Shown piece by piece: positions 7,232 through 51,110 of a DNA stretch of 64,000 nucleotides. How positions within the stretch are numbered: position 1 is the first letter of the stretch; each line of letters begins with the position of its first letter. The stretch covers positions 11,999 to 75,998 of the forward strand of contig NZ_JYJG01000001.1 of assembly GCF_000955955.1 (NCBI RefSeq), read 5' to 3'. Made by a program: the position numbers and the translations under genes. This stretch comes from Lentzea aerocolonigenes. Lineage in GTDB: Bacteria > Actinomycetota > Actinomycetes > Mycobacteriales > Pseudonocardiaceae. The notes under the pieces are model-generated. The model saw nothing but the letters and a program-made list of their open reading frames with translations, was not told the origin of the DNA and did not search any database.

Positions 7232-7374
7232 GAGTCCCCACCTTTCCGCACGGGTGGACACGGTAGCGGTCCGGGGTCAGCCAAACGCAGCCAGTCGAGA
7301 CGTTGCGTGACACCCGTCACCGGTAAGTGGATCACTCGTTAGATGGATTGCCTGCCTATGTTCACGGAGGGTCC

Positions 7375-8721
7375 ATGTTCAAACGCGCCGCACTGCTCGC
7401 CGTAGTGCTCGTGGCTGCCTCTACCCCTGTCGGGGCGGCCCAGACGACTTCGACGGTTTACGTCCACGGCACTGATCTCACCTCCGCCGAACGCGCGGTG
7501 GAGGCGGCCGGTCTGACGAAGCTCACGAGCTTCCGCAAGATCGGCGTGGTCGCCGCTCGCGGCACCACGACGCAGATCTCCTCCGCACGCACGAAGCCGG
7601 GCGTCAGCAACGTCGAGGTGGCCAGGGCCGCCAAGTTCCTGGGCTCGTCCGGCACCGCGGCCACGCGCAGCCGGGAGGCCCAGCAGGCGTCCGGGCTGAC
7701 CGGCGCGGGCGTCTCGGTCGCGGTGATCGACTCCGGCGTGGACCCGACGCACCCGGCGTTCGCGGGCGGCAAGATCGTCCGCAGCCTGAAGAGCCTGTGC
7801 GTCGCCGACAACTCGACGGACACCAGCTGCATCGTGCCGGTGCCGAACATCATCGACACGGACACGACGTCGTTGGGCGGCCACGGCACCCACGTCACCG
7901 GTATCGCGATCGGCACGCCGTACCAGCTCGCCGACGGCACCGTGGTCGGCGGCTCGGCGCCGGGTGCGAAGGGCGTGGTCATCTCGACCGGCGCGGCAAT
8001 CCTCATCCTCGGTGCGGACGCGGCCCTGAACTGGGTGCTGGAGAACCACAACGCGCCGTGCGGTGCCGGGGTGCCCGCGTCGACGTGCCCGCCGATCAAG
8101 GTGATCAACAACTCCTATGGTCCGACTGGCGGCGGTGCGTTCGACCCCGAGTCCGTCACGGTCAAGCTGCAGCGCCGGCTCGTGGCCGAGGGTGTCGTCG
8201 TCGTGTGGGCGAACGGCAACGACGGCGGCGACGGCACGACGAACCTGTCGAACCCGCCCGGCCAGGACCAGACGCCCGGCGTGATCTCGGCGGCCTCGTA
8301 CAACGACCAGGGCACCGGCACCCGTGACGGCGCGCTGTCCGACTTCTCGTCGCGTGGCCTGAAGACCGATCCCTCGACGTGGCCGGACATCTCGGCTCCC
8401 GGCGAGAACATCGTCTCGGCCTGCCGCCTGTACCTGCCGATCTGCTCCACCGGCCTGGCCCCGCAGAACGGGCCAGGACTGCTCGACCTCGGCACGTACA
8501 ACACGATCAGCGGCACGTCGATGGCGGCGCCGCAGATCGCCGGCATCGTCGCGCAGCTGTTCCAGGCCAAGCCCTCCGCGACCCCCGCCGACATCGAGCG
8601 GGCGCTGAAGTCCTCGGCCCACAAGTACGGCACGGGCTACCAGCAGGTCGGCCCGTACACGACGTCGTTCGACAAGGGCACGGGCCTAGTCGACGTCGTG
8701 GCCGCGGTAAACGCTCTGTAG
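7375..8721 (+). CDS. Secreted subtilisin-like (S8) serine protease
   Basis: A 448-residue protein from ATG 7375, preceded by GGAGGG. The first 24 residues are a signal peptide (FKRAALLAVVLVAAS, cleavage near VGAAQ). A short inhibitor-like propeptide follows to about residue 105. The catalytic triad is visible: Asp in AVIDSGVDPTHPAF, His in GGHGTHVTGI and Ser in SGTSMAAPQIAGI. The oxyanion Asn lies in the WANGNDGG region. The length is that of a compact secreted actinomycete protease. The 200 bp after it (8722-8921) hold no gene that I can support. Confidence 0.93.
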   Translation: MFKRAALLAVVLVAASTPVGAAQTTSTVYVHGTDLTSAERAVEAAGLTKLTSFRKIGVVAARGTTTQISSARTKPGVSNVEVARAAKFLGSSGTAATRSREAQQASGLTGAGVSVAVIDSGVDPTHPAFAGGKIVRSLKSLCVADNSTDTSCIVPVPNIIDTDTTSLGGHGTHVTGIAIGTPYQLADGTVVGGSAPGAKGVVISTGAAILILGADAALNWVLENHNAPCGAGVPASTCPPIKVINNSYGPTGGGAFDPESVTVKLQRRLVAEGVVVVWANGNDGGDGTTNLSNPPGQDQTPGVISAASYNDQGTGTRDGALSDFSSRGLKTDPSTWPDISAPGENIVSACRLYLPICSTGLAPQNGPGLLDLGTYNTISGTSMAAPQIAGIVAQLFQAKPSATPADIERALKSSAHKYGTGYQQVGPYTTSFDKGTGLVDVVAAVNAL

Positions 8722-8921
8722 ATCACGATCACGCATCACTCGGCCGGGGAGATCGGGACTTAAGACCTGTATCTGCCCCGGTCGGGTGATGATCGAGCTG
8801 GTTCTTATGGCGGACACCGCTCAAGTCAAGGCAGAATGCAGCGAACGGGCTTTCACGGTGATCACCTCACTCGGCAAAGGCGTAGGGGAAGACGTCCCTC
8901 GTCGAGTAGCGGAGGTCAGCA

Positions 8922-9425
8922 GTGAGCACCCGTGGCAGCACCAGTGGCGTGGTCTACGTCCACTCGTCGCCGTCTGCGGTCTGTCCGCACGTCGAGTGGG
9001 CGATCTCGGGCACCCTCGGTGAACGAGTGGACCTCAGATGGGCAGCGCAGCCCGCGGCACCAGGCCAGCTGCGCGCCGAATGCGCGTGGACCGGTGACGC
9101 AGGTACCGGCGCGAAACTCGTGGCTGCGCTTCGCGCGTGGCCAATGCTTCGCTTCGAGGTGACCGAGGAACCCTCCTCCGGTCAGGACGGCGAGCGCTTC
9201 TGCTTCGCGCCCGTTTTGGGCCTGTGGCACGCGCGGACCTCGGCAAATGGCGACATAGTCGTGAACGAGGACCAGCTGCGCGCGCTCGCGGTCAGAGCCC
9301 GTGGTGGCGAGTCCTTCGCGCACGGCGTCGACGAACTGCTCGGCGCGGCGTGGGACGACGCGCTGGAGCCGTTCAGGCGTGCGGGAGACGGCGCGCCGGT
9401 GACCTGGCTACACCGTGTCGGTTGA
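8922..9425 (+). CDS. DUF3145 family protein
   Basis: A 167-residue soluble protein from GTG 8922 with GGAGG six bases upstream. The sequence VVYVHSSPSAVCPHVEWAI at the N-terminus, FEVTEEPS in the middle and NGDIVVNEDQLRA towards the end are the hallmarks of the actinobacterial DUF3145 family. That family is conserved across the phylum and has no assigned biochemical role. It ends just before a bidirectional terminator shared with the ABC transporter genes. Confidence 0.85.
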   Translation: MSTRGSTSGVVYVHSSPSAVCPHVEWAISGTLGERVDLRWAAQPAAPGQLRAECAWTGDAGTGAKLVAALRAWPMLRFEVTEEPSSGQDGERFCFAPVLGLWHARTSANGDIVVNEDQLRALAVRARGGESFAHGVDELLGAAWDDALEPFRRAGDGAPVTWLHRVG

Positions 9426-9436
9426 GTCCTGAGTGG

Positions 9437-9463
9437 ACCCCGCTACCGTCTGGGCAGCGGGGT
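9437..9463. terminator. Bidirectional hairpin terminator
   Basis: ACCCCGCT (9437-9444) pairs perfectly with AGCGGGGT (9456-9463). It lies between the convergent DUF3145 gene and the end of the lanthipeptide exporter gene, overlapping the last codons of the latter. Confidence 0.6.
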
Positions 9464-11161
9464 CTCCTCGTGTCGTGTGGGGTCCCAGGCCAGCATGAGC
9501 TGCCCGTAGAGCGGCGAGGTCTGCAACAGGTGCTCGTGGGTGCCGAGCAACGGCTTCCCGCCGTCCATGACCAGCACGCGGTTCGCCCGCAGCGCCGAGC
9601 TCAGCCGGTGCGCGATCACCACGAGAATTCCGTCCCTTCGGGCAAAAGCACGTTCGACCCTGGCTTCCGCCGCCGGGTCGAGGTGTGAGGTCGCCTCGTC
9701 GAGGATCACCACGCTCGCGGACGTGACGTAAACCCGCGCGAGTGCCAGAAGTTGTGCCTCACCAGCGGAAAGTCCTTCACCCGCGTGGCCGAGCGGCGCG
9801 TCCAGGCCGCCGAGCCGGTCCAGAAGTGGTTTGGCGCCGACCTTTTTCACCGCTTCGGTGAGATCCTCGTCCGTCGCCCACGGCGCGAGCAGCGTCAGAT
9901 TTTCCCGCACGGTGCCCGTGAACAGGTACGTCTCCTGCGGAATCAGCGCGATCGCGTGGTGCCTCACCGCCGGATCCACCAGGTCCACGGGGGCGCCGCC
10001 GAACAGGACGCAGCCGAAGTCCGGTGGCATCAGGCCGGTGAGCAGACTGGCCATTGTGGACTTGCCGATGCCGGACGGTCCGACCACGGCCAGGTGGTCG
10101 CCGGGTTTGAGGCCGAGCGACAGGCCGCGCACCACGGGTTCCGCGTCCGGGCTCCAGCCGAACGTGACGTCCTTCAGCACGAATTCGCCGTTGGACGGAG
10201 TTTCCCGGCCTGTCTCCTGGGTTTTCTCAGGCGCGGCTTCCTGAAGTCGTTTGAGGGCAACCATCAGCCGCATCACGACGGTGCTGGTGGTGCGGGCCAG
10301 GCCGTGCAGCGCGGGGTTCACGCTGTTGGTGAGGTAGACGACCGCGGCGAGCACTGCACCCTTGGTCAGCTGGCCCGATGCGACGAGCGGGGGAGCGAAC
10401 GCCACCAGCAGCACGATCGGGGCGAAGCCGCCGATCGCGATCACCGTGGCGCGCAACGAGTTCGCCCACGCGACGACGACCGACGCCCTGGCCTGCTGGT
10501 CGATCTGCGTGGCGATGTCCTCGTAGGCCTCGTCGGAGGCGGTGCAGGCGGCGACGTCGCGCAGGCCGGTGAGCACCGCGCCGGACGCTTCCGCCGTGCG
10601 TTCGTCTGCCATCACGGCGTCGCGCTGGCGTTTGGCCAGTGAGGGAAGCATGAGCCCGAACAGCACCAGCGCGGCGATGATCGGCAGCACCACCAGCCAG
10701 ATCAACGCGGCCGCGGTGGTCGCTAGACCGATCAGCGCGGCGACCGTCGTGACGAGAAGTGCGCGGGCCTGCACCAGAACACCTGCGGTGGCGTCGCGCA
10801 CGACCTCGACGTGCCGCGTGATCATGGCCACCGCGCTGGCATCCGGCGTGCGGCGGTGCGTCGGATCGTTCAGCACGCCCTTCACCACCTGCGTGACCAG
10901 GGCGTCGCGCATGGGTTCGACGACACTGCCGAGCCGCGCGAAGACCTGGCGCTGACCGAGTGCCCCGGCGACCGCGAGCGCTGCGAAGGCGAGCAGCCAC
11001 AGGACACCGGCCTGCGGATCACCCGCGCCGAAGCCCTGGTCGACGGCGGTGCCGACGAGCTTGCCGCCGAAGAACGCCGGCACGCCTTCGAGCATGGACC
11101 AGCCGAGCAGGATCAGGACGCCTCTGCGGTGTCCTGCCAGCGTGGAGAGGTAGAAACGCAT
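9443..11161 (-). CDS. ABC exporter subunit B of class III lanthipeptide locus (RamB-like)
   Basis: A 572-residue fused permease-ATPase half transporter. An N-terminal six-helix domain (about 1-300) precedes a nucleotide-binding domain with Walker A VGPSGIGKST, signature LSAGEAQ (a variant of LSGGQ) and Walker B VVILDEATSHLD, which keeps the catalytic Glu. ATG 11161 shares its A with the TGA of the upstream subunit, indicating translational coupling. With the upstream gene it should form a heterodimer exporting the modified peptide. The position matches the last gene of ramCSAB-type loci. Confidence 0.88.
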   Translation of the reverse strand: MRFYLSTLAGHRRGVLILLGWSMLEGVPAFFGGKLVGTAVDQGFGAGDPQAGVLWLLAFAALAVAGALGQRQVFARLGSVVEPMRDALVTQVVKGVLNDPTHRRTPDASAVAMITRHVEVVRDATAGVLVQARALLVTTVAALIGLATTAAALIWLVVLPIIAALVLFGLMLPSLAKRQRDAVMADERTAEASGAVLTGLRDVAACTASDEAYEDIATQIDQQARASVVVAWANSLRATVIAIGGFAPIVLLVAFAPPLVASGQLTKGAVLAAVVYLTNSVNPALHGLARTTSTVVMRLMVALKRLQEAAPEKTQETGRETPSNGEFVLKDVTFGWSPDAEPVVRGLSLGLKPGDHLAVVGPSGIGKSTMASLLTGLMPPDFGCVLFGGAPVDLVDPAVRHHAIALIPQETYLFTGTVRENLTLLAPWATDEDLTEAVKKVGAKPLLDRLGGLDAPLGHAGEGLSAGEAQLLALARVYVTSASVVILDEATSHLDPAAEARVERAFARRDGILVVIAHRLSSALRANRVLVMDGGKPLLGTHEHLLQTSPLYGQLMLAWDPTRHEETPLPRR

Positions 11162-12774
11162 CACTCGCCCCCGGTGAACACGGCGCGGTAGTCCTCGTGG
11201 TCCCACAGCTCCTGGTGCGTGCCGGTGCCTCGCAACCGGCCTTTCTCCAGCCACACCACGACGTCCGCACGCGCTGCCGTGGCCGGCCGATGTGTCACGA
11301 CGACCCGTGTCCTGCCCGGTAGAGCGGTTGTCAGCGCGGCGTCCACTTTGGCCTCGGTGACGGTGTCGAGACTGGCGGTGGCGTCGTCGAGCACCAGCAC
11401 CTCGGGATCTCGGACTATTGCGCGCGCGAGCCCGATCCGTTGGGCTTCACCGCCGGACAGAGGTGCGTCCGCCAGCGGAGTGTCGTAGCCCTGTGGCAAG
11501 CGAATCAGCACGTCGTGCACTTGGGCCGCGACGGCCGCGTCACGAACCTGGGCGTCGTCGGCGGCGGTTCCATAGCCGATGGAACGGCCGATCGTCGTGC
11601 CGAGCAGCGCCGGCCGTTCGAATGCGTAACCGACGGCGCCTTCTCTGGCGACCGTGCCGTTGTCCACTGCGGACAGTCCACCGAGCACTGCGGCGAGCGT
11701 CGACTTGCCCGCGCCGGAGCTGCCCACGACCGCGGCGAACGCGCCGCCGGGGATCGTGAGGCTCACGTCGTGCAGGGCGCCGTCGACGCTGACGTTGCGC
11801 AGCTCGATTCCGGTGCTGGGCAGGAGTTCTGGGCGCGGGGGCACCGGGGTGTCGAGGACCTCGGCGATGCGGGTGGCCGACGCGCGGGTGCGTTCCAGCA
11901 CCGTGAGCTGCGGCATCTGACCGACGATGCCCATGCCGAGCGCGGTGTAGCCGAGCGCGGCGAGCACGTCGCCCGTGGTCAGCCTGCCTTCGAGGATGCC
12001 GAAACCGGCGGCGACGAGCACGGCCAGTTCCACGGCAGGCAGCAGAAGTCCGGCCCGCCACATCATCTTCGCCTGGGTGCGCCACATGCCCGCGCCGGCC
12101 GCGGCGAGGCGGGGGAGCGGCTGCAGCACGCGTTCCGACTCGCGGTCGGCGATGCCCGCCGCGGCGATCGTGTGCCTGCCGGCCACCGCGTCGAGCAGGC
12201 GGGCCGAGATCTCACCGGAAACCTGCTGGTAGGCCAGCACGTCGTCGGCGGTGAGCTGCATGTGTGAGCGGACCAGGAACATCGCCAGCGGCACGCTCAC
12301 CGCGAACACCGCGGCGAGCCGCCAGTCCAGCAACGCCAGCGCCACGACGGCACCCACCGACGACACGGCGGTGACGGTCAGGGCCAGCAGCGTGACCACG
12401 ATGCCACCGGCGTTGCCGCAGTCGCCGGTCAACCGGCTCACGGCGTCACCGGCGGCGAACCGGGACGGATGACCGAGCGCGAGCAGGTGGCGGGACAGTC
12501 GTTTGCGCAGCCAGGCGGTGGCACGGGCGGTGATGCTCGCGGCCAGCACGATGCCGATCGCGTCGCCGACGATCTCCGTTGCCGCGAGCAGGAGCAGCCA
12601 CAACACGGTGACCAGCACGAACTTGCCGCTCAACGCCATGTCGACAGCGCCTGCGAGTGCGGTGGGGAGAAGCAGGCCACCGGTGGTCGCCACAGCGGCG
12701 TTGAGGAGCAGCAACCACGGGCGGAAGTCGCGTCTGACGGTGGAGAACAGCAGAGTGTCACCGGGTTTGGCCAT
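11161..12774 (-). CDS. ABC exporter subunit A of class III lanthipeptide locus (RamA-like)
   Basis: A 537-residue fused permease-ATPase from ATG 12774, with GGAGG nine bases upstream. Transmembrane helices occupy about residues 20-290. The ATPase domain has Walker A VGSSGAGKST, signature LSGGEAQR and Walker B VLVLDDATASLD. The Asp after the Walker B Asp replaces the usual catalytic Glu, so this half probably forms the degenerate site of a heterodimer, while its partner keeps a Glu. It lies downstream of the precursor gene, behind strong hairpins that may lower its expression relative to the precursor. Confidence 0.88.
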   Translation of the reverse strand: MAKPGDTLLFSTVRRDFRPWLLLLNAAVATTGGLLLPTALAGAVDMALSGKFVLVTVLWLLLLAATEIVGDAIGIVLAASITARATAWLRKRLSRHLLALGHPSRFAAGDAVSRLTGDCGNAGGIVVTLLALTVTAVSSVGAVVALALLDWRLAAVFAVSVPLAMFLVRSHMQLTADDVLAYQQVSGEISARLLDAVAGRHTIAAAGIADRESERVLQPLPRLAAAGAGMWRTQAKMMWRAGLLLPAVELAVLVAAGFGILEGRLTTGDVLAALGYTALGMGIVGQMPQLTVLERTRASATRIAEVLDTPVPPRPELLPSTGIELRNVSVDGALHDVSLTIPGGAFAAVVGSSGAGKSTLAAVLGGLSAVDNGTVAREGAVGYAFERPALLGTTIGRSIGYGTAADDAQVRDAAVAAQVHDVLIRLPQGYDTPLADAPLSGGEAQRIGLARAIVRDPEVLVLDDATASLDTVTEAKVDAALTTALPGRTRVVVTHRPATAARADVVVWLEKGRLRGTGTHQELWDHEDYRAVFTGGE

Positions 12775-12915: not shown

Positions 12916-13080
12916 TCAGCAGGCCAGCAGGCTGACGGTGGAGTGCGAGCAGGGGAGCAGCAGCGACGCGTTGGACGCGGTCGTGGAGCCGCCGCCACCG
13001 CCGCCGCCGTGGCCCGACGCCATCGCGTTGCTCGGCGCCTCGGGGGTCTCGAGGTCCTGCATGTCAAGGATGAAGCCCAT
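12916..13080 (-). CDS. Class III lanthipeptide precursor (RamS/AmfS-like)
   Basis: A 54-residue peptide from ATG 13080 with GGAG eight bases upstream, 38 bp after the LanKC stop. The leader has ILDMQDLETP at residues 4-13, the recognition helix typical of class III leaders (SapB and AmfS type), and ends in a run of seven Gly (25-31). The core carries two labionin/lanthionine signatures: S36-x2-S39-x4-C44 and S47-x2-S50-x3-C54. SASLLLPC-like and VSLLAC segments resemble the SLLLC and LSITTC rings of SapB. The kinase-lyase-cyclase upstream should phosphorylate and eliminate the Ser, then add the Cys thiols. Core length is about 22 residues; the true leader cut is unknown. Confidence 0.9.
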   Translation of the reverse strand: MGFILDMQDLETPEAPSNAMASGHGGGGGGGSTTASNASLLLPCSHSTVSLLAC

Positions 13081-13118
13081 GACGATCTCCTTCTTCGAGG
13101 ATCTTTCGGGGGTTACTG

Positions 13119-15686
13119 CTACCGGTCCGAGAGGACCGGGGCCTGAGCCCTTCCGAGGAAGGGAAGTGGTGGACGTCCGTCCACTGTGGAGGCGATCGCG
13201 AGCAGCACGCCCGCGCCGCCGGTGTTGAGGTCCATGGAGAGCCTGCGCAGCTGCACACCGGGGAACGCGAGCCCGTCACCGAAGCGCACGGCGTGCCAGC
13301 CCAGTGCCCGCAGGTGCTTCTGGACCGAGCGCTCGAGCCGCTCGTCCTGGCGGGTCCTGTTCGCGTGGGCGAGGGTGGCCATCAGACCGGCCCTGCCCAG
13401 CGTGAACGCCGGCTGGATGACGAACTCCCCGGTGCAGCCGCTGAGCAGTTCTGGCAGCTTCTCGACGCACGGGCGTTCCGGCGCGACCGCGGCGAACTCG
13501 GTGAGCACCAGCGCGATGCCCGCACCGCCGATGCCGACGTACGGCAGGCTCCTGAACGTGCCGTCGCGCACCTGCAGCGAACCGTCGAGCGCGATCATCG
13601 TCTCGGCCAGGTCGCGTTCGAGCGCCTGCTCCGCGAGCTTCAGCCAGCGTCGTTCGGTGGTGTGCTCGTACATCCGCAGGAAGAACAACGCCGGTCCCGA
13701 CCAGCCGTGCAGCAGACCCGCCCGTGCCTTGTCACCCGGTCCTGCCACGTCGGCCAGCTGCTTCGCGAGCCGCTCGGCGAGCTCTTCGGCCTTGACCGCG
13801 AAGCTGTCGTCGTGGCGGGTGTCCGCGAAGTGCAGCAGGTTGAGCCCGATGCCGGACAGCCCAGCGCTCAGCCCGTGGTCGTTCGTGGTGGGGACGAGCG
13901 CGGCGTAGGTCTCGACGAGCTCGGTCGCGACGTCGTGGTGGCCGAAGTTCTCCAGCACGTGCGCGATTCCGTGGGCGCCGACGAAGAAACCGGGCTGCTT
14001 CGGCGGGTCCTGCCGGACCGTCCTGATCAGCCAGTCCTCGTGCTCCGGGTAGCGGCCCTCGCCTGCTTCCGAGAGGGCGTGCAGCACACCTGCCGCGCCG
14101 TAACCGAAGCACGTGCCGCCGACCTCGAACTGCTCGATGTCGCCGGGGAACAGCCGGTCCTGGCGTTGTGGCGTCGCGCTGTGCAGGATCGCCGTGGCGA
14201 TCTCCTTGCGCACGACCGTCCAGTCCGGGTTCTCCTCGTCGAACTCGGTGAACGCCGCATCGGCCGGCGGGTCGACGCGCGGGGTGAGCACGTCGATGAT
14301 CTCCTGGCCGTACTCGTCGGTGAGCCCGAAGCGCTGCTTGATCACCTGCACGTGCTGCGGGAGTTTCGCCGGGGCGAGCTCCAGCACCGTGTTGAGCGGC
14401 AGGAAGATCCACAGCTTGAGCGCCGCGAGCGGGTGCTCGTCGATCTCGAAGCCCTCGCGGTCCGGCGGGGCCTGGAAGCCGGGCGCGCCCAGCGTGGGCC
14501 GGTGCACGTTCTCGATCGTCGACGACAGCTCGAAGTCGATCAGCGAGACCTCGTCGTCGTCATCGACCAGGATGTTGAGCGTGTGCAGGTCGCCGAACAC
14601 GACGCCGCGCTCGTGAACCCTGGTCATGAGTTCCTCGACCTTGCCGACCAGGGCGAGCGCGCGGTCCTTGTACTCGGCGAGCTTCTCGTCGGTCGCTTCC
14701 CTGTGCGTCAACGGGTAGTTGTGGCCGAGCCACTGCCCGAGCGAGCGTCCTGGCATGAACTCCATGGCGACGAAGAGGTGCTCCCACTCGGTGAAGCGGT
14801 CGTACACCTCCGGCACGCCCTTGACGCCGTTGAGCTTGGTGAGGATCTCGTGTTCCAGCTCCAGCCGTGCCACGGCGTCGCGGCCCTCGCGGTCGAGCCC
14901 GGCGTGCGGCCGCGCCTCCTTGAGGACGACCTCCTTGCCGTCGCTCTTGCGGGTGGCCAGGTAGACGCCGCCCCCGTTGGAGAAGTGCAGCGAACGCTTG
15001 ATCTGGTACGGGAACTGTTCGGGGTCGCCGGCGTTGCGCTCGGCGAGGTGCGGGGCCAGGAACTCCGGCAGCTCGATCCACTCCGGCACGCTGAAGACCG
15101 GCTTGCGCTTGTCCGCGATGAGCTTGCCGTCCGGGCCCTCGATCGCGAGCACCTGCTGGCCGTCGACCTCGAGCCACTGCTCGGAGAACCCGCCGTAGCG
15201 CACGTAGAGCGGACCCTTGCCGTACCGCAGGTCGCTCAGGATGTAGGCGCCGTGCTCACCGTGCAGGATCGCGCCGAGCTCGGCGCAGATGGTCTCGAGC
15301 TGCTCGGTGCCCGTCGGGTAGATCGTGATCAGCTTGCCGCTGCCCTCGCGGGGCGCGTACTTCGAGTTGCGGGCGAGCACGATCGAGATCGTCTGCAGGT
15401 ACTTGAACGGAATTCGCCGCTCGACGCAGTAGTCGAAGGTCTCCTTGAGAACCTTGCCCGCGTTGTCGAGACCTGCGGAGACGTGGATCTTCCAACCCTG
15501 TTTCGGCAGCTGCACTCCCTGCGGGTGCAGGTGGCGCCACACGTTGCGCTCGATCTGCACCCAGCCGGCGGGGAGTTCGGGCAGCTCACGCGAAAAGTCG
15601 TCGCCGGGGAGGTCGCTTTCGGTGCTGCTCTGCAGATCGTAGAACCGTCGATCTGCGAAGCAGAACGCCTCGTATCTGAGGTCCAC
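13119..15686 (-). CDS. Class III lanthipeptide synthetase (LanKC, RamC-like)
   Basis: An 855-residue trifunctional enzyme. The N-terminal lyase part (about 1-225) starts MDLRYEAFCFADRRFYD. A Ser/Thr-kinase-like domain (about 225-500) has the Gly-rich NGGGVYLA, the Lys of EVVLKEARP, the catalytic loop VFGDLHTLNILVD and the metal motif SLIDFEL. A LanC-like cyclase domain (about 515-855) has SAGLSGIGLNLLHF and LLHGWSGPALFF. It lacks the Cys/Cys/His zinc ligands of LanC, which places it in class III rather than class IV. It makes lanthionine or labionin from the peptide encoded just downstream. The gene order synthetase, precursor, two exporter halves is that of ramCSAB; no RamR-like regulator is adjacent. 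Confidence 0.93.
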   Translation of the reverse strand: MDLRYEAFCFADRRFYDLQSSTESDLPGDDFSRELPELPAGWVQIERNVWRHLHPQGVQLPKQGWKIHVSAGLDNAGKVLKETFDYCVERRIPFKYLQTISIVLARNSKYAPREGSGKLITIYPTGTEQLETICAELGAILHGEHGAYILSDLRYGKGPLYVRYGGFSEQWLEVDGQQVLAIEGPDGKLIADKRKPVFSVPEWIELPEFLAPHLAERNAGDPEQFPYQIKRSLHFSNGGGVYLATRKSDGKEVVLKEARPHAGLDREGRDAVARLELEHEILTKLNGVKGVPEVYDRFTEWEHLFVAMEFMPGRSLGQWLGHNYPLTHREATDEKLAEYKDRALALVGKVEELMTRVHERGVVFGDLHTLNILVDDDDEVSLIDFELSSTIENVHRPTLGAPGFQAPPDREGFEIDEHPLAALKLWIFLPLNTVLELAPAKLPQHVQVIKQRFGLTDEYGQEIIDVLTPRVDPPADAAFTEFDEENPDWTVVRKEIATAILHSATPQRQDRLFPGDIEQFEVGGTCFGYGAAGVLHALSEAGEGRYPEHEDWLIRTVRQDPPKQPGFFVGAHGIAHVLENFGHHDVATELVETYAALVPTTNDHGLSAGLSGIGLNLLHFADTRHDDSFAVKAEELAERLAKQLADVAGPGDKARAGLLHGWSGPALFFLRMYEHTTERRWLKLAEQALERDLAETMIALDGSLQVRDGTFRSLPYVGIGGAGIALVLTEFAAVAPERPCVEKLPELLSGCTGEFVIQPAFTLGRAGLMATLAHANRTRQDERLERSVQKHLRALGWHAVRFGDGLAFPGVQLRRLSMDLNTGGAGVLLAIASTVDGRPPLPFLGRAQAPVLSDR

Positions 15687-16125
15687 CGAATTCCCTCCTC
15701 GACTGTTTGCGATTTCGTTGACGCGGCATATTCGGCCACAATTCGGCGGCTATGGCCAATCCGCCATTCGAGGTATATGGGTAGCCCGTTCGTGTCCGAA
15801 TGAGACGTGGTTACCGGCGCGTATGTGACAGTTCGTGATGAGGTTTGGGTCCATCTCACCCGGCTGCGAGGTTTGCTGATTGGTGAGTCAGCGCACCCGT
15901 CTTGGGGCTATGCTAAACGGCACTGTATCGTTCCATAACGGCGCAACGCGGTGAGCTGCGGTATTCCAAGTCGATCTCGACGTATAGTTGGGGGTACACA
16001 ACCGTCGTGCACGCGCTGTGTTCTGTGCTCTTTTCGGGTGAAGCCGCGAATCGCGACGAATGCGCGTTTAGTACGGCCGATCGGCGGTATGGGCTCACCT
16101 GAAAGAACTCATTCGGAGGATGAGA

Positions 16126-16287
16126 TTGCGCATGTACTTTTATGTAGCAATCATTGTCTTGCTACATGCAACTTGCATCCGCGGGAAATGTAGTCTTTTG
16201 GGTGAAGTTTTATGTTTCGATGTAACGGAACCGTTTGTGAGTGGGCCTCTGCTGTCCGAGGGCCGCCGCGCGGGGGGTGACAGCTAG
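16126..16287 (+). CDS. Candidate 53-residue peptide with hydrophobic N-terminus (doubtful)
   Basis: From TTG 16126, six bases after GGAGG (16115-16119), the frame runs 53 codons to TAG 16285. The N-terminal MYFYVAIIVLLHATC looks like a membrane or signal segment ending in a Cys, and three Cys lie in the first 30 residues. Codon use is AT-rich and unlike the neighbouring genes. The ATG at 16132 is an alternative start. It ends nine bases before the next gene. It may be chance within an AT-rich regulatory region. Confidence 0.25.
   Translation: MRMYFYVAIIVLLHATCIRGKCSLLGEVLCFDVTEPFVSGPLLSEGRRAGGDS
16142..16178. promoter_or_regulatory. Overlapping inverted repeats upstream of LanKC operon
   Basis: ATGTAGCAA (16142-16150) and TTGCTACAT (16159-16167) form a perfect 9-bp inverted repeat around 8 bases. 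ATGCAA-C-TTGCAT (16166-16178) overlaps its right end. They are about 460 bp upstream of the LanKC start and 120 bp upstream of the 16297 gene. A regulator-binding site or an RNA hairpin are both possible. Confidence 0.4.
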
Positions 16288-16296
16288 GCTGTTTGC

Positions 16297-16875
16297 GTGG
16301 CGAGTGGGGCTAGCCGGTGGTTGGTGCCGGCCGTGGTGGTGATCACCGGAGCTGCTGTTGCGGCTGGGATGGTGGGGCGGACGCTCTACTCGCGTCCTCC
16401 CGAGGCTCAGGGTGATCCGGTGGTGGCCTCGTCCGCTGTGGTGTCCGGGGAGCCTCTGCCTGGGATCTCGCAGGTTCGGTTGAGCCCCGACTCGTTCTTC
16501 CACCCGGATCGGACTGCTGTGCAGTCGGTGCTGCAGAGGTTCTTCGACGCGATCAACCGGCGGGATTTTGCCCAGTGGCGGGGGACTGTGTCGGCTCGGA
16601 GGGTTTCGCAGACCGTTGAGTCGACTTGGGCTGCTGCCTATGAGACCACCCGGGACGGTGGGGTGGTGGTGCAGCGGGTCGAGTCCGACGTGGTGGGGCG
16701 GCGGTTGCGGGTGTTGATCTCGTTCGTGTCCACTCAGGACGTTGAGAAGGCGCCGGTTGCGTTGCCGGAGGGGTGTATCCGGTGGCGGGTTGTGTACGTG
16801 ATGGTGTGGGAGGGTGGGGAGTTGAAGGTGGATGAGGCGCCGGAGAACCGGACTCCTCAGATGGAGAAGTGCTGA
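16297..16875 (+). CDS. Membrane-anchored protein of unknown function
   Basis: A 192-residue protein from GTG 16297. A signal-anchor helix occupies about residues 8-27 (WLVPAVVVITGAAVAAG). A Pro-rich linker and a domain of about 120 residues follow. That domain begins RTAVQSVLQRFFDAINRRDFAQW and resembles the NTF2/SnoaL fold often found outside the actinobacterial membrane. There are no catalytic residues I can name. It stands alone between the lanthipeptide locus and the convergent fatty acid operon, with 144 bp to the fabF end. Confidence 0.65.
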   Translation: MASGASRWLVPAVVVITGAAVAAGMVGRTLYSRPPEAQGDPVVASSAVVSGEPLPGISQVRLSPDSFFHPDRTAVQSVLQRFFDAINRRDFAQWRGTVSARRVSQTVESTWAAAYETTRDGGVVVQRVESDVVGRRLRVLISFVSTQDVEKAPVALPEGCIRWRVVYVMVWEGGELKVDEAPENRTPQMEKC

Positions 16876-35882: not shown

Positions 35883-35954
35883 GGGCGTGTAGCTCAGCGG
35901 AAGAGCACTCGGTTTACACCCGAGCGGTCGCAGGTTCGATCCCTGTCGCGCCCA
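35883..35954 (+). tRNA. tRNA-Val (anticodon UAC)
   Basis: A 72-nt cloverleaf. Acceptor GGGCGTG pairs with CGCGCCC, with discriminator A at 35954. The D arm contains AGCTCAGCGGAAGAGC, the anticodon stem CTCGG/CCGAG encloses TTTACAC, giving anticodon TAC, and the T arm is GCAGGTTCGATCCCTGT-like. CCA is not encoded. A short CGGCC/GGCCG stem follows directly. Confidence 0.95.
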
Positions 35955-47984: not shown

Positions 47985-48590
47985 ATGATCAGAGTACTAC
48001 TCGCCGAGGACGTGCAAATGGTCCGGGGCGCGTTGGTGGCTTTGTTGGATCTCGAACCGGACATTGAGGTCGTCGCCTCGATCGCGAACGGTGACGAAAT
48101 CATCGCTGCGGTCGCCAAGAACAAACCGGACGTTGCGGTCCTCGACATCGACCTCCCCGGCATGGACGGACTTTCCGCGGCGACCGTGATCAACGAAACC
48201 GCTCCGGAGACCCGCACGCTCATTCTCACCAGCCTCGGCCGGCCGGGCACTCTGCGCCGCGCGCTCAACGCCCGCGTCAACGGCTTCATTCTCAAGGACG
48301 CTCCGGTCGGCGAGCTCGCGGACGCGATCCGCGGTGTCTCGGTCGGCCGCAGAGTGATCGACTCGCAGCTGGCGCTCTCGGCGTGGGACACCGACGAATG
48401 CCCGCTCACCCCTCGCGAGCTGGAGGTGCTCCGGCTGGCCTCCGACGGCGCCGACGCCATGGAGATCGCCACGACGCTGTTCCTGTCGGTCGGCACCGTC
48501 CGCAACTACCTCACCGCCGCGACGGCCAAGCTCGACGCGCGCAACCGGGTCGACGCCGTCCGCATCGCCCGCAAGTCCGGCTGGTTCTAG
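47985..48590 (+). CDS. NarL/LuxR-type response regulator
   Basis: A 201-residue protein. The receiver domain has acidic LLAEDVQ at the start, the phosphoacceptor Asp in VAVLDIDLPGMDG (about 54) and the Lys of FILKDAP. The LuxR HTH is LTPRELEVLRLASDGADAMEIATTLFLSVGTVRNYL. It resembles DesR-type partners of HisKA_3 kinases. The likely kinase gene faces it at 48836-49966. Repeats lie between the two genes. Confidence 0.92.
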   Translation: MIRVLLAEDVQMVRGALVALLDLEPDIEVVASIANGDEIIAAVAKNKPDVAVLDIDLPGMDGLSAATVINETAPETRTLILTSLGRPGTLRRALNARVNGFILKDAPVGELADAIRGVSVGRRVIDSQLALSAWDTDECPLTPRELEVLRLASDGADAMEIATTLFLSVGTVRNYLTAATAKLDARNRVDAVRIARKSGWF

Positions 48591-48835: not shown

Positions 48836-49966
48836 TCAGGAGCGCGGGGACGGTGCCGGGATCGTGGCGTGCACGTGGAACGTGCCGTCGTCCACAAGGC
48901 GGGCGCTGAACGTGCCGCCCGCCGCCTGCACCCGCTCGGCCTGGTTGCGGACGCCGTTGCAGTCGGCCGAGGCGGGGCGGGCGCGGGCGCCGTCGTTGAT
49001 GACGTCGAGCAGGACGGTGCTGCCGCGCTGGCGCACACCGATCGTGCAACTGCTGGCGTCGCTGTGGCGCAATACGTTGGTCACGGCCTCGCACAGGACG
49101 GCGGCGAGCACCGACTCCACCGGTTCGGGCAGCGGGTCGTGGTCGAGTTCGACGCGGACGTCGATGTTCGACGCGGCCAGCATCGCCTTCGCCGAGTCGG
49201 AGGTGTCGGCGAGGGAGAGCGGACGGTAGGCGCGGGCCAGTGAGCGCACGTCGGCCAGGGCGTGGTGGGTGATGTCCAGGATTTCGCTGAGCTGCTGCTT
49301 CGCGGTCTCCGGCTGTTCGCCGACGATCCGGTGCGCGAGCTCGCTCTTGAGCTTGATGGCGCTGAGGCTGTAGCCGAGCAGGTCGTGCAGGTCGCGGGCG
49401 ACGCGCATGCGTTCGGCGGCGACGGCGGTGTGGATCTTGCTCGCGGCGACCGGAAGGTCGGGCGCGTCGGGTGTGTCGGGCGCGTCCGGAACAGGCCGAG
49501 GTGTGCCGAGGTAGGCCAGGAGCAGGCCGGTGGCTGCGGCGGCCACCGCTGCCTCGCCCGGTGACGCTCCGTTGGACAGGCCTGTGACCAGCACTGTCGC
49601 CGCGAAGGTCGGCCAGCCAGCCCACGGGGGCAGGACGAGCAGTGCGTTGCCGGCGACCAGGCCGGCCGCCGCGGCCCAGGCGTGACCCAGCACGAGCGGG
49701 GCCAGCAGGAGCAGCACCTGAGCGGCCAGGGTGACGTTCCTGGCGGTGGTGCCGAGTTCCCGGAAATATGTCAGCTGCAGTGCGAGCAGCAGTGCCAAAT
49801 CAATGGCCAGCACCACCAATTCGGCCATGTCACGTGTCTGTAACACGAGGCGGCCGAGGTCGGTCAGGCAGGCCCCGGCGAACACTGCGATGACGACCGC
49901 GCGGTATCTGGGTATTGCGTGTGCGGCATTCAACGTTCCCCCAATGGGCGTGCCTCTCCGCGACAT
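48836..49966 (-). CDS. Sensor histidine kinase (HisKA_3, DesK-like)
   Basis: About 376 residues from ATG 49966; TTG 49933, with GGGGGA upstream, and ATG 49972 are alternatives. The N-terminal half has about six hydrophobic helices and no large extracellular loop. The phosphoacceptor His lies in ERMRVARDLHDLLGYSL. The ATPase has EAVTNVLRHSDA and, towards the end, NGVRNQAERVQAAGG, a variant of the G1 box. It should pair with the facing response regulator. The signal is unknown and may be membrane-borne. Confidence 0.88.
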   Translation of the reverse strand: MSRRGTPIGGTLNAAHAIPRYRAVVIAVFAGACLTDLGRLVLQTRDMAELVVLAIDLALLLALQLTYFRELGTTARNVTLAAQVLLLLAPLVLGHAWAAAAGLVAGNALLVLPPWAGWPTFAATVLVTGLSNGASPGEAAVAAAATGLLLAYLGTPRPVPDAPDTPDAPDLPVAASKIHTAVAAERMRVARDLHDLLGYSLSAIKLKSELAHRIVGEQPETAKQQLSEILDITHHALADVRSLARAYRPLSLADTSDSAKAMLAASNIDVRVELDHDPLPEPVESVLAAVLCEAVTNVLRHSDASSCTIGVRQRGSTVLLDVINDGARARPASADCNGVRNQAERVQAAGGTFSARLVDDGTFHVHATIPAPSPRS

Positions 49967-50294
49967 CGGCATACCGGCGCGCCCATGGTCGAATGGTAGA
50001 CAGCCGAAGCATGCTCGCGTCGGCAACTGTATCGGTGCAGAAACCTGACCTGAAGACCCGGGCCGAGCCGATTTCACACAGAAGGACGAGTATTTCCCGG
50101 AACTCTTACCCAGCGTGTTCGGCCGATTACCGGACGAATTGGTTTGGGTTCGTTTGGACCTGTGAATATCTCATGCCCGCCGTAGTAGATGGCCATCTCG
50201 CACTCGTGGCGGGATACGTGGCGTTCGATAGCCCGGCTCAGGTGAACTTGATGGCACAACCAAGTAGGACCGCCGTCGATCAGGGGAGGATCCA
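49967..50294. promoter_or_regulatory. Divergent promoter region histidine kinase / SARP
   Basis: This 328-bp gap lies between the divergent kinase and SARP genes. It must hold both promoters. I see no gene. Its AT content rises from about 50050 to 50270, and GGGGAGGATCC before 50295 is the SARP ribosome-binding site. Confidence 0.5.
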
Positions 50295-51110
50295 ATGGAG
50301 ATCAAGGTTCTGGGCCCGCTGGAGGTACGGGAGAACGGTGTCTCGATCGCGCCGAGCGCGGTCAAGCCGCGTCAGGTGCTGTCACTGCTGGGGCTGCACG
50401 CCGGACACGTCGTGACCGTGCCGACGCTGATCGAGGAACTCTGGGGGATGACACCGCCGAGAAGCGCGCTCACGACGTTGCAGACATACGTGCTGCAGGT
50501 GCGCCGCCGCATCGCCACGGCCATGCCCGACGACGGTCCCGGTGTCGCGAAGAAGGTGCTCGTCACCAGGTACGGGGGATACCTGCTGGACGTGCCGCCG
50601 GAGAGCGTCGACGTGCGCAGCTTCGAGCGGCTCTCGACCGCGGGGCAGCGGGCGTACGAGGTCAACGACCTCGAGTCCGCCTCGCGCCTGCTCCGCTCGG
50701 CCGCCGAGGTGTGGCGCGGGCCGGTGCTGGTCGACGTGCAGATCGGCGTGCGGCTCAGCATGGAGGTCACCCGGTTGCAGGAGTGCCGGCTCGGCGTGCT
50801 CGAGACGCGCATCGAGGCGGACCTGCGCCTGGGCAAGCACCAGTCGTTGCTCAGCGAGCTGTCGGTGCTCACCGCGCAGCACCCGATGCACGAGAACCTG
50901 TGCGCGCAGTACATGCTCGCGCTCTACCGGGCGGGCCGGCAGTGGAAGTCGCTGGAGGCCTACCAGTCGCTGCGGGACACGCTGATCGAGGAGCTGGGGC
51001 TCGAGCCGTCCGAAAGGCTGCGTCAGCTGCAGCGGGCGATCCTGAGCTCCGAGCCGTCCCTCGACGAGCCGTTGTCCCCTCGCCAGCTGGAGCGCCAGCT
51101 CGCAGGCTGA
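50295..51110 (+). CDS. SARP family pathway activator
   Basis: A 271-residue Streptomyces antibiotic regulatory protein. The OmpR-like DNA-binding domain covers about 1-95 ([46 protein letters not shown]). The bacterial transcriptional activation domain covers about 100-250 ([23 protein letters not shown]). It has no ATPase part, as in small SARPs. Such activators usually sit inside a biosynthetic cluster; here it precedes the acetolactate synthase pair and the polyketide tailoring genes. Confidence 0.93.

Follow-up and report, generated by a model that had tools for sequence, protein, structure and literature searches.

A genus-wide SapB/AmfS-type class III lanthipeptide cluster in Lentzea, with a morphogen as its most likely product

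The window analysed here, a stretch of 64,000 nucleotides from Lentzea aerocolonigenes, carries a four-gene class III lanthipeptide cluster which, with high confidence, represents the genus-wide and apparently vertically inherited SapB/AmfS (RamS) type and most likely yields a morphogen. Gene content, family membership, conservation and constraint were read from the sequence, while chemistry, export, leader removal and role are proposed by analogy with characterised relatives. The best-known SapB/AmfS members are small ring-containing peptides that assist filamentous bacteria of the soil in forming aerial hyphae. On the minus strand, the genes follow in the order LanKC, precursor and two half-size ABC exporters, corresponding to ramC-S-A-B. 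A complete ramCSAB-type class III locus had already been proposed in a sequence-only reading, and all of its parts were found, the exporters lying outside the interval 12916-15686 assigned to it. The features of the cluster and its surroundings are as follows:

7327-8721, plus strand: subtilisin-like S8 protease (PF00082, E=1.2e-39)
8922..9425, plus strand: DUF3145 gene, left flank outside the cluster, convergent with the exporters (PF11343, E=1.8e-73)
9443..11161, minus strand: half-size ABC exporter in RamB-like position, 572 aa from ATG (PF00664 and PF00005)
11161..12774, minus strand: half-size ABC exporter in RamA-like position, 537 aa (PF00664 and PF00005)
12916..13080, minus strand: lanthipeptide precursor, 54 aa (translation; PF19402 and NF033212 above cut-off; synonymous-only differences to four relatives)
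13119..15686, minus strand: class III lanthionine synthetase LanKC of RamC/AmfT type, 855 aa, GTG start (NF038151, Pfam domains, structure chains)
15687..16296, no strand assigned: divergent intergenic region of 610 bases, presumed lanKC promoter (alignment of the window with 11 Lentzea loci)
16297..16875, plus strand: small gene, right flank outside the cluster (weak Rv0361-family membrane-protein match, 18.8 bits, cut-off 37)

Precursor peptide, synthetase and exporters

The 54-residue ORF that had been put forward as the precursor (minus strand, 13080-12916) translates to MGFILDMQDLETPEAPSNAMASGHGGGGGGGSTTASNASLLLPCSHSTVSLLAC. Comparison with class III precursor families, which had been recommended as a check, places this peptide well beyond chance and above the curated cut-offs of both relevant models, PF19402 RamS of Pfam (34.7 bits against a cut-off of 24.3, E=2.5e-8) and NF033212 SapB_AmfS of NCBIfam (52.7 bits against a cut-off of 25, E=3.3e-14). 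The assignment as precursor holds. The positions named earlier for its parts are likewise all correct in the translation. The leader comprises ILDMQDLETP at residues 4-13, a run of seven Gly occupies residues 25-31 (codons 12988-13008), and two SxxSx(2-5)C units make up the core, namely S36-x2-S39-x4-C44 with Pro43 preceding C44, and S47-x2-S50-x3-C54. The predicted core S36-C54 has a GRAVY value of 0.99. Six bases 5' of the precursor ATG, the sequence AAGGAG is found, which is likely to serve as ribosome-binding site.

In a codon-by-codon comparison, the precursor gene was set against the nine genes of the same length among 20 relatives. Four of these (L008-L011) encode a protein equal to the window precursor and differ from its gene by 3-11 bases, every one of them synonymous, while the remaining five display 7 to 14 non-synonymous codon differences. 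Since only synonymous differences occur in L008-L011, the precursor gene is read in this frame and is under selection among the closest relatives. That a different small peptide nearby would be the true substrate of the synthetase, with the 54-residue ORF left untranslated, can thus be dismissed almost with certainty. Several further short ORFs, compared with families in part, do overlap the region, as expected in high-GC DNA, but the 54-residue ORF exceeds the precursor-family cut-offs, and its differences to the four relatives are synonymous. Moreover, searching the organism's own genome with the precursor as query gave a single match, the next-best hit having E=0.305, so that a second precursor elsewhere in the genome was rejected as well.

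The adjoining synthetase displays the complete class III architecture, consisting of an N-terminal RamC_N domain (PF25816), a protein kinase domain (PF00069) and a LanC-like cyclase domain (PF05147). It reaches 1037.5 bits with NF038151 (cut-off 575), while the class IV model gives 374.7 bits and remains under its cut-off of 650. The LanKC crystal-structure chains 8sao, 8sap and 8sam match residues 27-840 or 26-840, almost the entire protein, with a best E of 7e-101. Only one full-length match to this LanKC is present in the organism's own genome.

Downstream of the precursor, the two ABC half transporters take the positions of ramA and ramB. No match to a peptidase domain was found in the exporter at 11161-12774, and both half transporters are without a matched peptidase domain. 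For the RamB-like exporter, the longest ORF starts at GTG 11254, yet the ATG at 11161 overlaps the preceding stop codon (TGATG) and, judged by this overlap alone, appears to be the likelier start. The tblastn query for this exporter began at ATG 11161, and the choice of start codon is independent of its matches. Each exporter was matched at the same place in all 20 relatives among the matches listed.

Occurrence and variation of the cluster in related genera

A protein search over approximately 5.8 billion proteins returned 99 precursor homologues, the window's own included. The strict core pattern (x4 ending in Pro-Cys, x3 before the second Cys, terminal Cys) is present in 81 of them, and another eight retain the spacing with V, L or I replacing Pro. 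The remaining ten fail the pattern due to a C-terminal tail (7), read-through (1), truncation (1) or a frame change (1), although Pro-Cys is visible by eye in nine of these ten; overall, Pro precedes the first Cys in 90 of the 99 homologues. The seven homologues P0094-P0099 and P0101 form a side group in which the core is almost unchanged, whereas the leader differs and the peptide continues past the last Cys in a C-terminal tail such as QQRAED. The glycine linker is far more variable. Its longest run measures 2 to 9 residues in 98 of the 99 homologues (mostly 3 to 9; a single Gly in the frame-changed one), and exactly seven in 15. Between close relatives, its length shifts by whole codons, while leader and core change little, a pattern that would be expected from slippage in GGC repeats.

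Several near-identical database entries, from Lentzea, Saccharothrix, Actinosynnema and Umezawaea, already bear the name SapB/AmfS family lanthipeptide. These public peptides belong to the same family, with up to 100% identity, and differ in the length of the Gly linker and in some leader and core residues, the kind of peptide being unchanged. A scan of named genomes gave at least 20 loci (Lentzea, Saccharothrix, Umezawaea), and the same locus is thereby contained in 20 records of these three genera among the matches listed. Among these matches, the identical 54 residues occur in L. flava, L. californiensis, L. fradiae and Lentzea sp. NEAU-D7. Within the genus, all 24 genomes carry the precursor with one match each. 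Identity of LanKC to the window's enzyme amounts to 82-89% in the 11 Lentzea loci compared to 65-68% in the nine others. Of 200 genomes sampled across the family, 107 contain a LanKC over the cut-off.

A class III, erythreapeptin-like cluster was reported for the Lentzea strains studied in PMC9120177, and three new Lentzea species were described with a class III cluster of 75% homology, probably Ery-9 (PMC11092160). The earlier suggestion of a probably new member can therefore not be upheld, given identical precursors in named Lentzea species and a cluster type in print for the genus; cluster and peptide are ordinary and already catalogued, and the peptide represents no new kind. This also applies to Pro43, the extra residue in ring one and the Gly run, which had been singled out as unusual. 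Because the published class III motif SxxSx(2-5)C already includes x4 (PMC11251773), and Pro and spacing are group-wide while the Gly run is variable, these features turn out to be traits of the group. What appeared as a new lead is hence a catalogued peptide with group traits. Its modest value lies elsewhere: with one precursor match in each of 24 genomes of the genus, an identical peptide in several species and a gene neighbourhood that lacks the cassette in related genera, it offers a stable system in which SapB-like peptides can be studied outside Streptomyces.

A further, rather tentative idea is that Lentzea, Saccharothrix and Umezawaea possess a morphogen subfamily of their own, installed once between two old neighbouring genes, retained from then on and characterised by a near-frozen Pro-containing core, an x4 ring one and a variable poly-Gly linker. 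If true, the near-invariant core would constitute a shared developmental signal, and a differently trimmed linker might tune solubility or release.

Neighbourhood, regulation and leader processing

The gene order KC-A-ABC-ABC is found in all 20 named relatives among the matches listed, and in all 20 of them DUF3145 flanks the exporter side while a gene of the 16297 type flanks lanKC. The gap between exporter and DUF3145 measures 23-97 bases in 14 and 271-1575 bases in six of these 20 listed loci. Further out, fabF-acp-fabH-fabD fatty-acid genes and a PucR-type regulator follow in 17 of 17 loci reaching that far, the fetched DNA of L008, L010 and L013 ending before the fab genes. For comparison with genomes of the wider family, DUF3145 was searched in 60 family genomes, of which 59 matched. 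The best 30 of these 59, a selection by score instead of a random one, were examined as pieces of 3.1-3.5 kb, which leaves genes farther out beyond their reach. In 23 of the 30 loci, covering 18 of the 23 genera examined, the 16297-type gene stands beside DUF3145 with no lan gene between them (gaps of up to approximately 270 bases as judged from tblastn ends). The RamB-like exporter adjoins DUF3145 in six loci, two from the window's genus and four from three other genera, and one locus (L078) carries fabF next to DUF3145 with no 16297-type gene seen. The simplest reading of this distribution is that an ancestor of the group received the four-gene cassette at the junction of DUF3145 and the 16297-type gene, and that the cassette would have been inherited since. 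The present analysis thus adds to the catalogued record that the cassette sits in a gene neighbourhood which, in related genera, exists without it.

Upstream of lanKC, the divergent intergenic region contains the blocks CTATACGT and TGGAATA, both invariant in all 12 aligned loci (the window and 11 Lentzea loci). The block CATGTRGCAAGACAA (R = A or G) is also carried by 15687-16296, among others. The conserved blocks are candidate regulator or promoter sites, and none could be matched to a known regulator in the 12-locus alignment. A ramR/amfR-like response regulator is absent beside the cluster, where the flanks are DUF3145 and the small gene without regulator domain. Among the scanned ORFs, which cover part of the window, the nearest LuxR-type response regulator is encoded at 47985-48590, about 32 kb off. 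This gene (plus strand) is followed by a HisKA_3 histidine kinase at 48836-50077 (minus strand) and a BTAD-type regulator at 50295-51110 (plus strand). An adjacent regulator is here treated as a trait of Streptomyces loci (PMC13380574) and not of the peptide family.

Two small ORFs had to be considered as cluster regulators and were rejected. The one at 16297-16875 is devoid of a regulator domain, matches the Rv0361 family below cut-off and occurs where the cluster is missing. The other, at 8786-9022, overlaps the DUF3145 start in a different frame and gave no family match; although tblastn finds it in all 20 loci among the matches listed, it is taken as a shadow of the DUF3145 gene. No Rfam element near the cluster reached the gathering scores; a tRNA at 35883-35954 was the single match within the window.

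As regards leader removal, the S8 protease at 7327-8721 would be an obvious candidate for a dedicated, clustered LanP, since only about 0.7 kb separates its end from that of the exporters and since some class III peptides are known to have an S8 protease, AmyP being an example (PMC10885120). Its distribution argues against this. Judged by the best tblastn stretch in the 20 cluster-bearing relatives among the matches listed, the protease is almost complete (432-465 residues) in no more than 12; two show a short stretch (145 and 24 residues), and the fetched DNA of six gave no match. Conversely, of the 24 family loci showing no cassette at this site, 11 have an S8 homologue next to DUF3145, and the protease hence appears to be part of the older neighbourhood. 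By eye, its N terminus resembles a signal peptide, which speaks against the role as well, while still being compatible with processing after export. Being neither co-inherited with the cluster nor restricted to lan-bearing neighbourhoods, the enzyme was rejected as dedicated LanP, a function it is very unlikely to have. Instead, the leader is most likely trimmed by an M1 metallopeptidase of the AplP type encoded elsewhere. Actinobacterial class III clusters are usually described as lacking a protease (PMC7268733), and M1 enzymes of the AplP type, encoded away from the cluster, remove the leaders of several class III peptides (PMC10885120). S9 and M16 proteases are also known as class III leader trimmers. 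The genome search for proteases covered M1 and gave six M1 peptidase matches, none of them on the window's contig; the best one is an open frame of 854 aa.

Proposed product, role and comparison with known systems

By analogy with characterised relatives, LanKC would bind the leader around ILDMQDLE and would phosphorylate and eliminate Ser36, Ser39, Ser47 and Ser50. Cyclisation of the dehydrated residues with Cys44 and Cys54 would then result in two labionin or lanthionine rings. The modified peptide would be exported by the two ABC half-transporters and its leader trimmed by a protease encoded outside the cluster, leaving a hydrophobic product whose most likely place of action is the colony surface, where it would serve aerial hyphae as a morphogen like SapB or AmfS. 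The type of ring is not readable from the sequence, since SapB and AmfS carry lanthionines (PMC13380574, discussion) and durhapeptin labionins; likewise, peptides with the Sx2Sx3C motif are described with lanthionine in some cases and with labionin in other cases (PMC7268733). A loss of four waters fits both ring types, so mass alone does not separate labionin from lanthionine. After this loss, the predicted monoisotopic mass amounts to 1842.912 Da ([M+2H]2+ 922.463) for the core beginning at S36, 2203.077 Da from S32 and 2602.227 Da from G25. Four waters are, moreover, an expectation from the motif, and S32, T33, T34, S45 and T48 near or in the core could also be dehydrated.

A SapB-like morphogenetic role is likely by kinship. 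Genus-wide conservation shows constraint, not which function is constrained. A well-developed aerial mycelium has been described in three new Lentzea species (PMC11092160). Possibly, however, though with clearly lower probability, the same cluster gives an erythreapeptin-like product with another role, antibacterial or otherwise, instead of a morphogen. The erythreapeptin cluster of Saccharopolyspora erythraea was named as the closest one for all studied Lentzea strains, the Lentzea class III cluster being assigned to erythreapeptin-9 at 75% (PMC9120177, PMC11092160), and the related erythreapeptin-9 has been called antibacterial (PMC9120177). In line with this, the precursor is also matched by the lanthi_III_b model NF038159, albeit with 23.9 bits below the cut-off of 30, whereas SapB/AmfS is the best curated model with 52.7 bits against a cut-off of 25. 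Gene order as in ramCSAB and the hydrophobic core equally favour the morphogen, and erythreapeptin and SapB have been placed in one subfamily, so the two labels are not mutually exclusive (PMC11251773). A report of an isolated Lentzea product was not found in the open-licence literature. The excerpts of PMC9415966 (Crossiella) and PMC8960859 (hidden proteases) contain nothing on SapB/AmfS-type peptides of this group, and PMC10206099 deals with noursin-like peptides.

A recent comparison is durhapeptin from Streptomyces durhamensis (2026), which, like the window peptide, belongs to the class III SapB/AmfS family and combines two labionin-type units with a hydrophobic core; changing a hydrophobic residue abolished its activity (PMC13380574). 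Durhapeptin contains two SxxSxxxC units, in contrast to x4 in unit one of the window peptide, and its cluster is described with durT, an ABC-domain protein and an adjoining response regulator, the transporter having a protease domain according to a figure legend (PMC13380574). The window, on the other hand, provides two half transporters with no matched peptidase domain and no regulator. The NCBI SapB/AmfS family as a whole comprises more than 4,000 sequences (PMC13380574).

SapB (ramCSAB, Streptomyces coelicolor) and AmfS (amfTSAB, S. griseus) offer a further parallel. The window differs in the x4 before Cys and the Pro-Cys in unit one, the long and variable Gly linker and the lack of an adjacent ramR/amfR. 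At the same time, both systems share with the window the order KC-S-A-B, the precursor families PF19402 and NF033212, an LDxQ-type leader recognition motif and two SxxS..C units.
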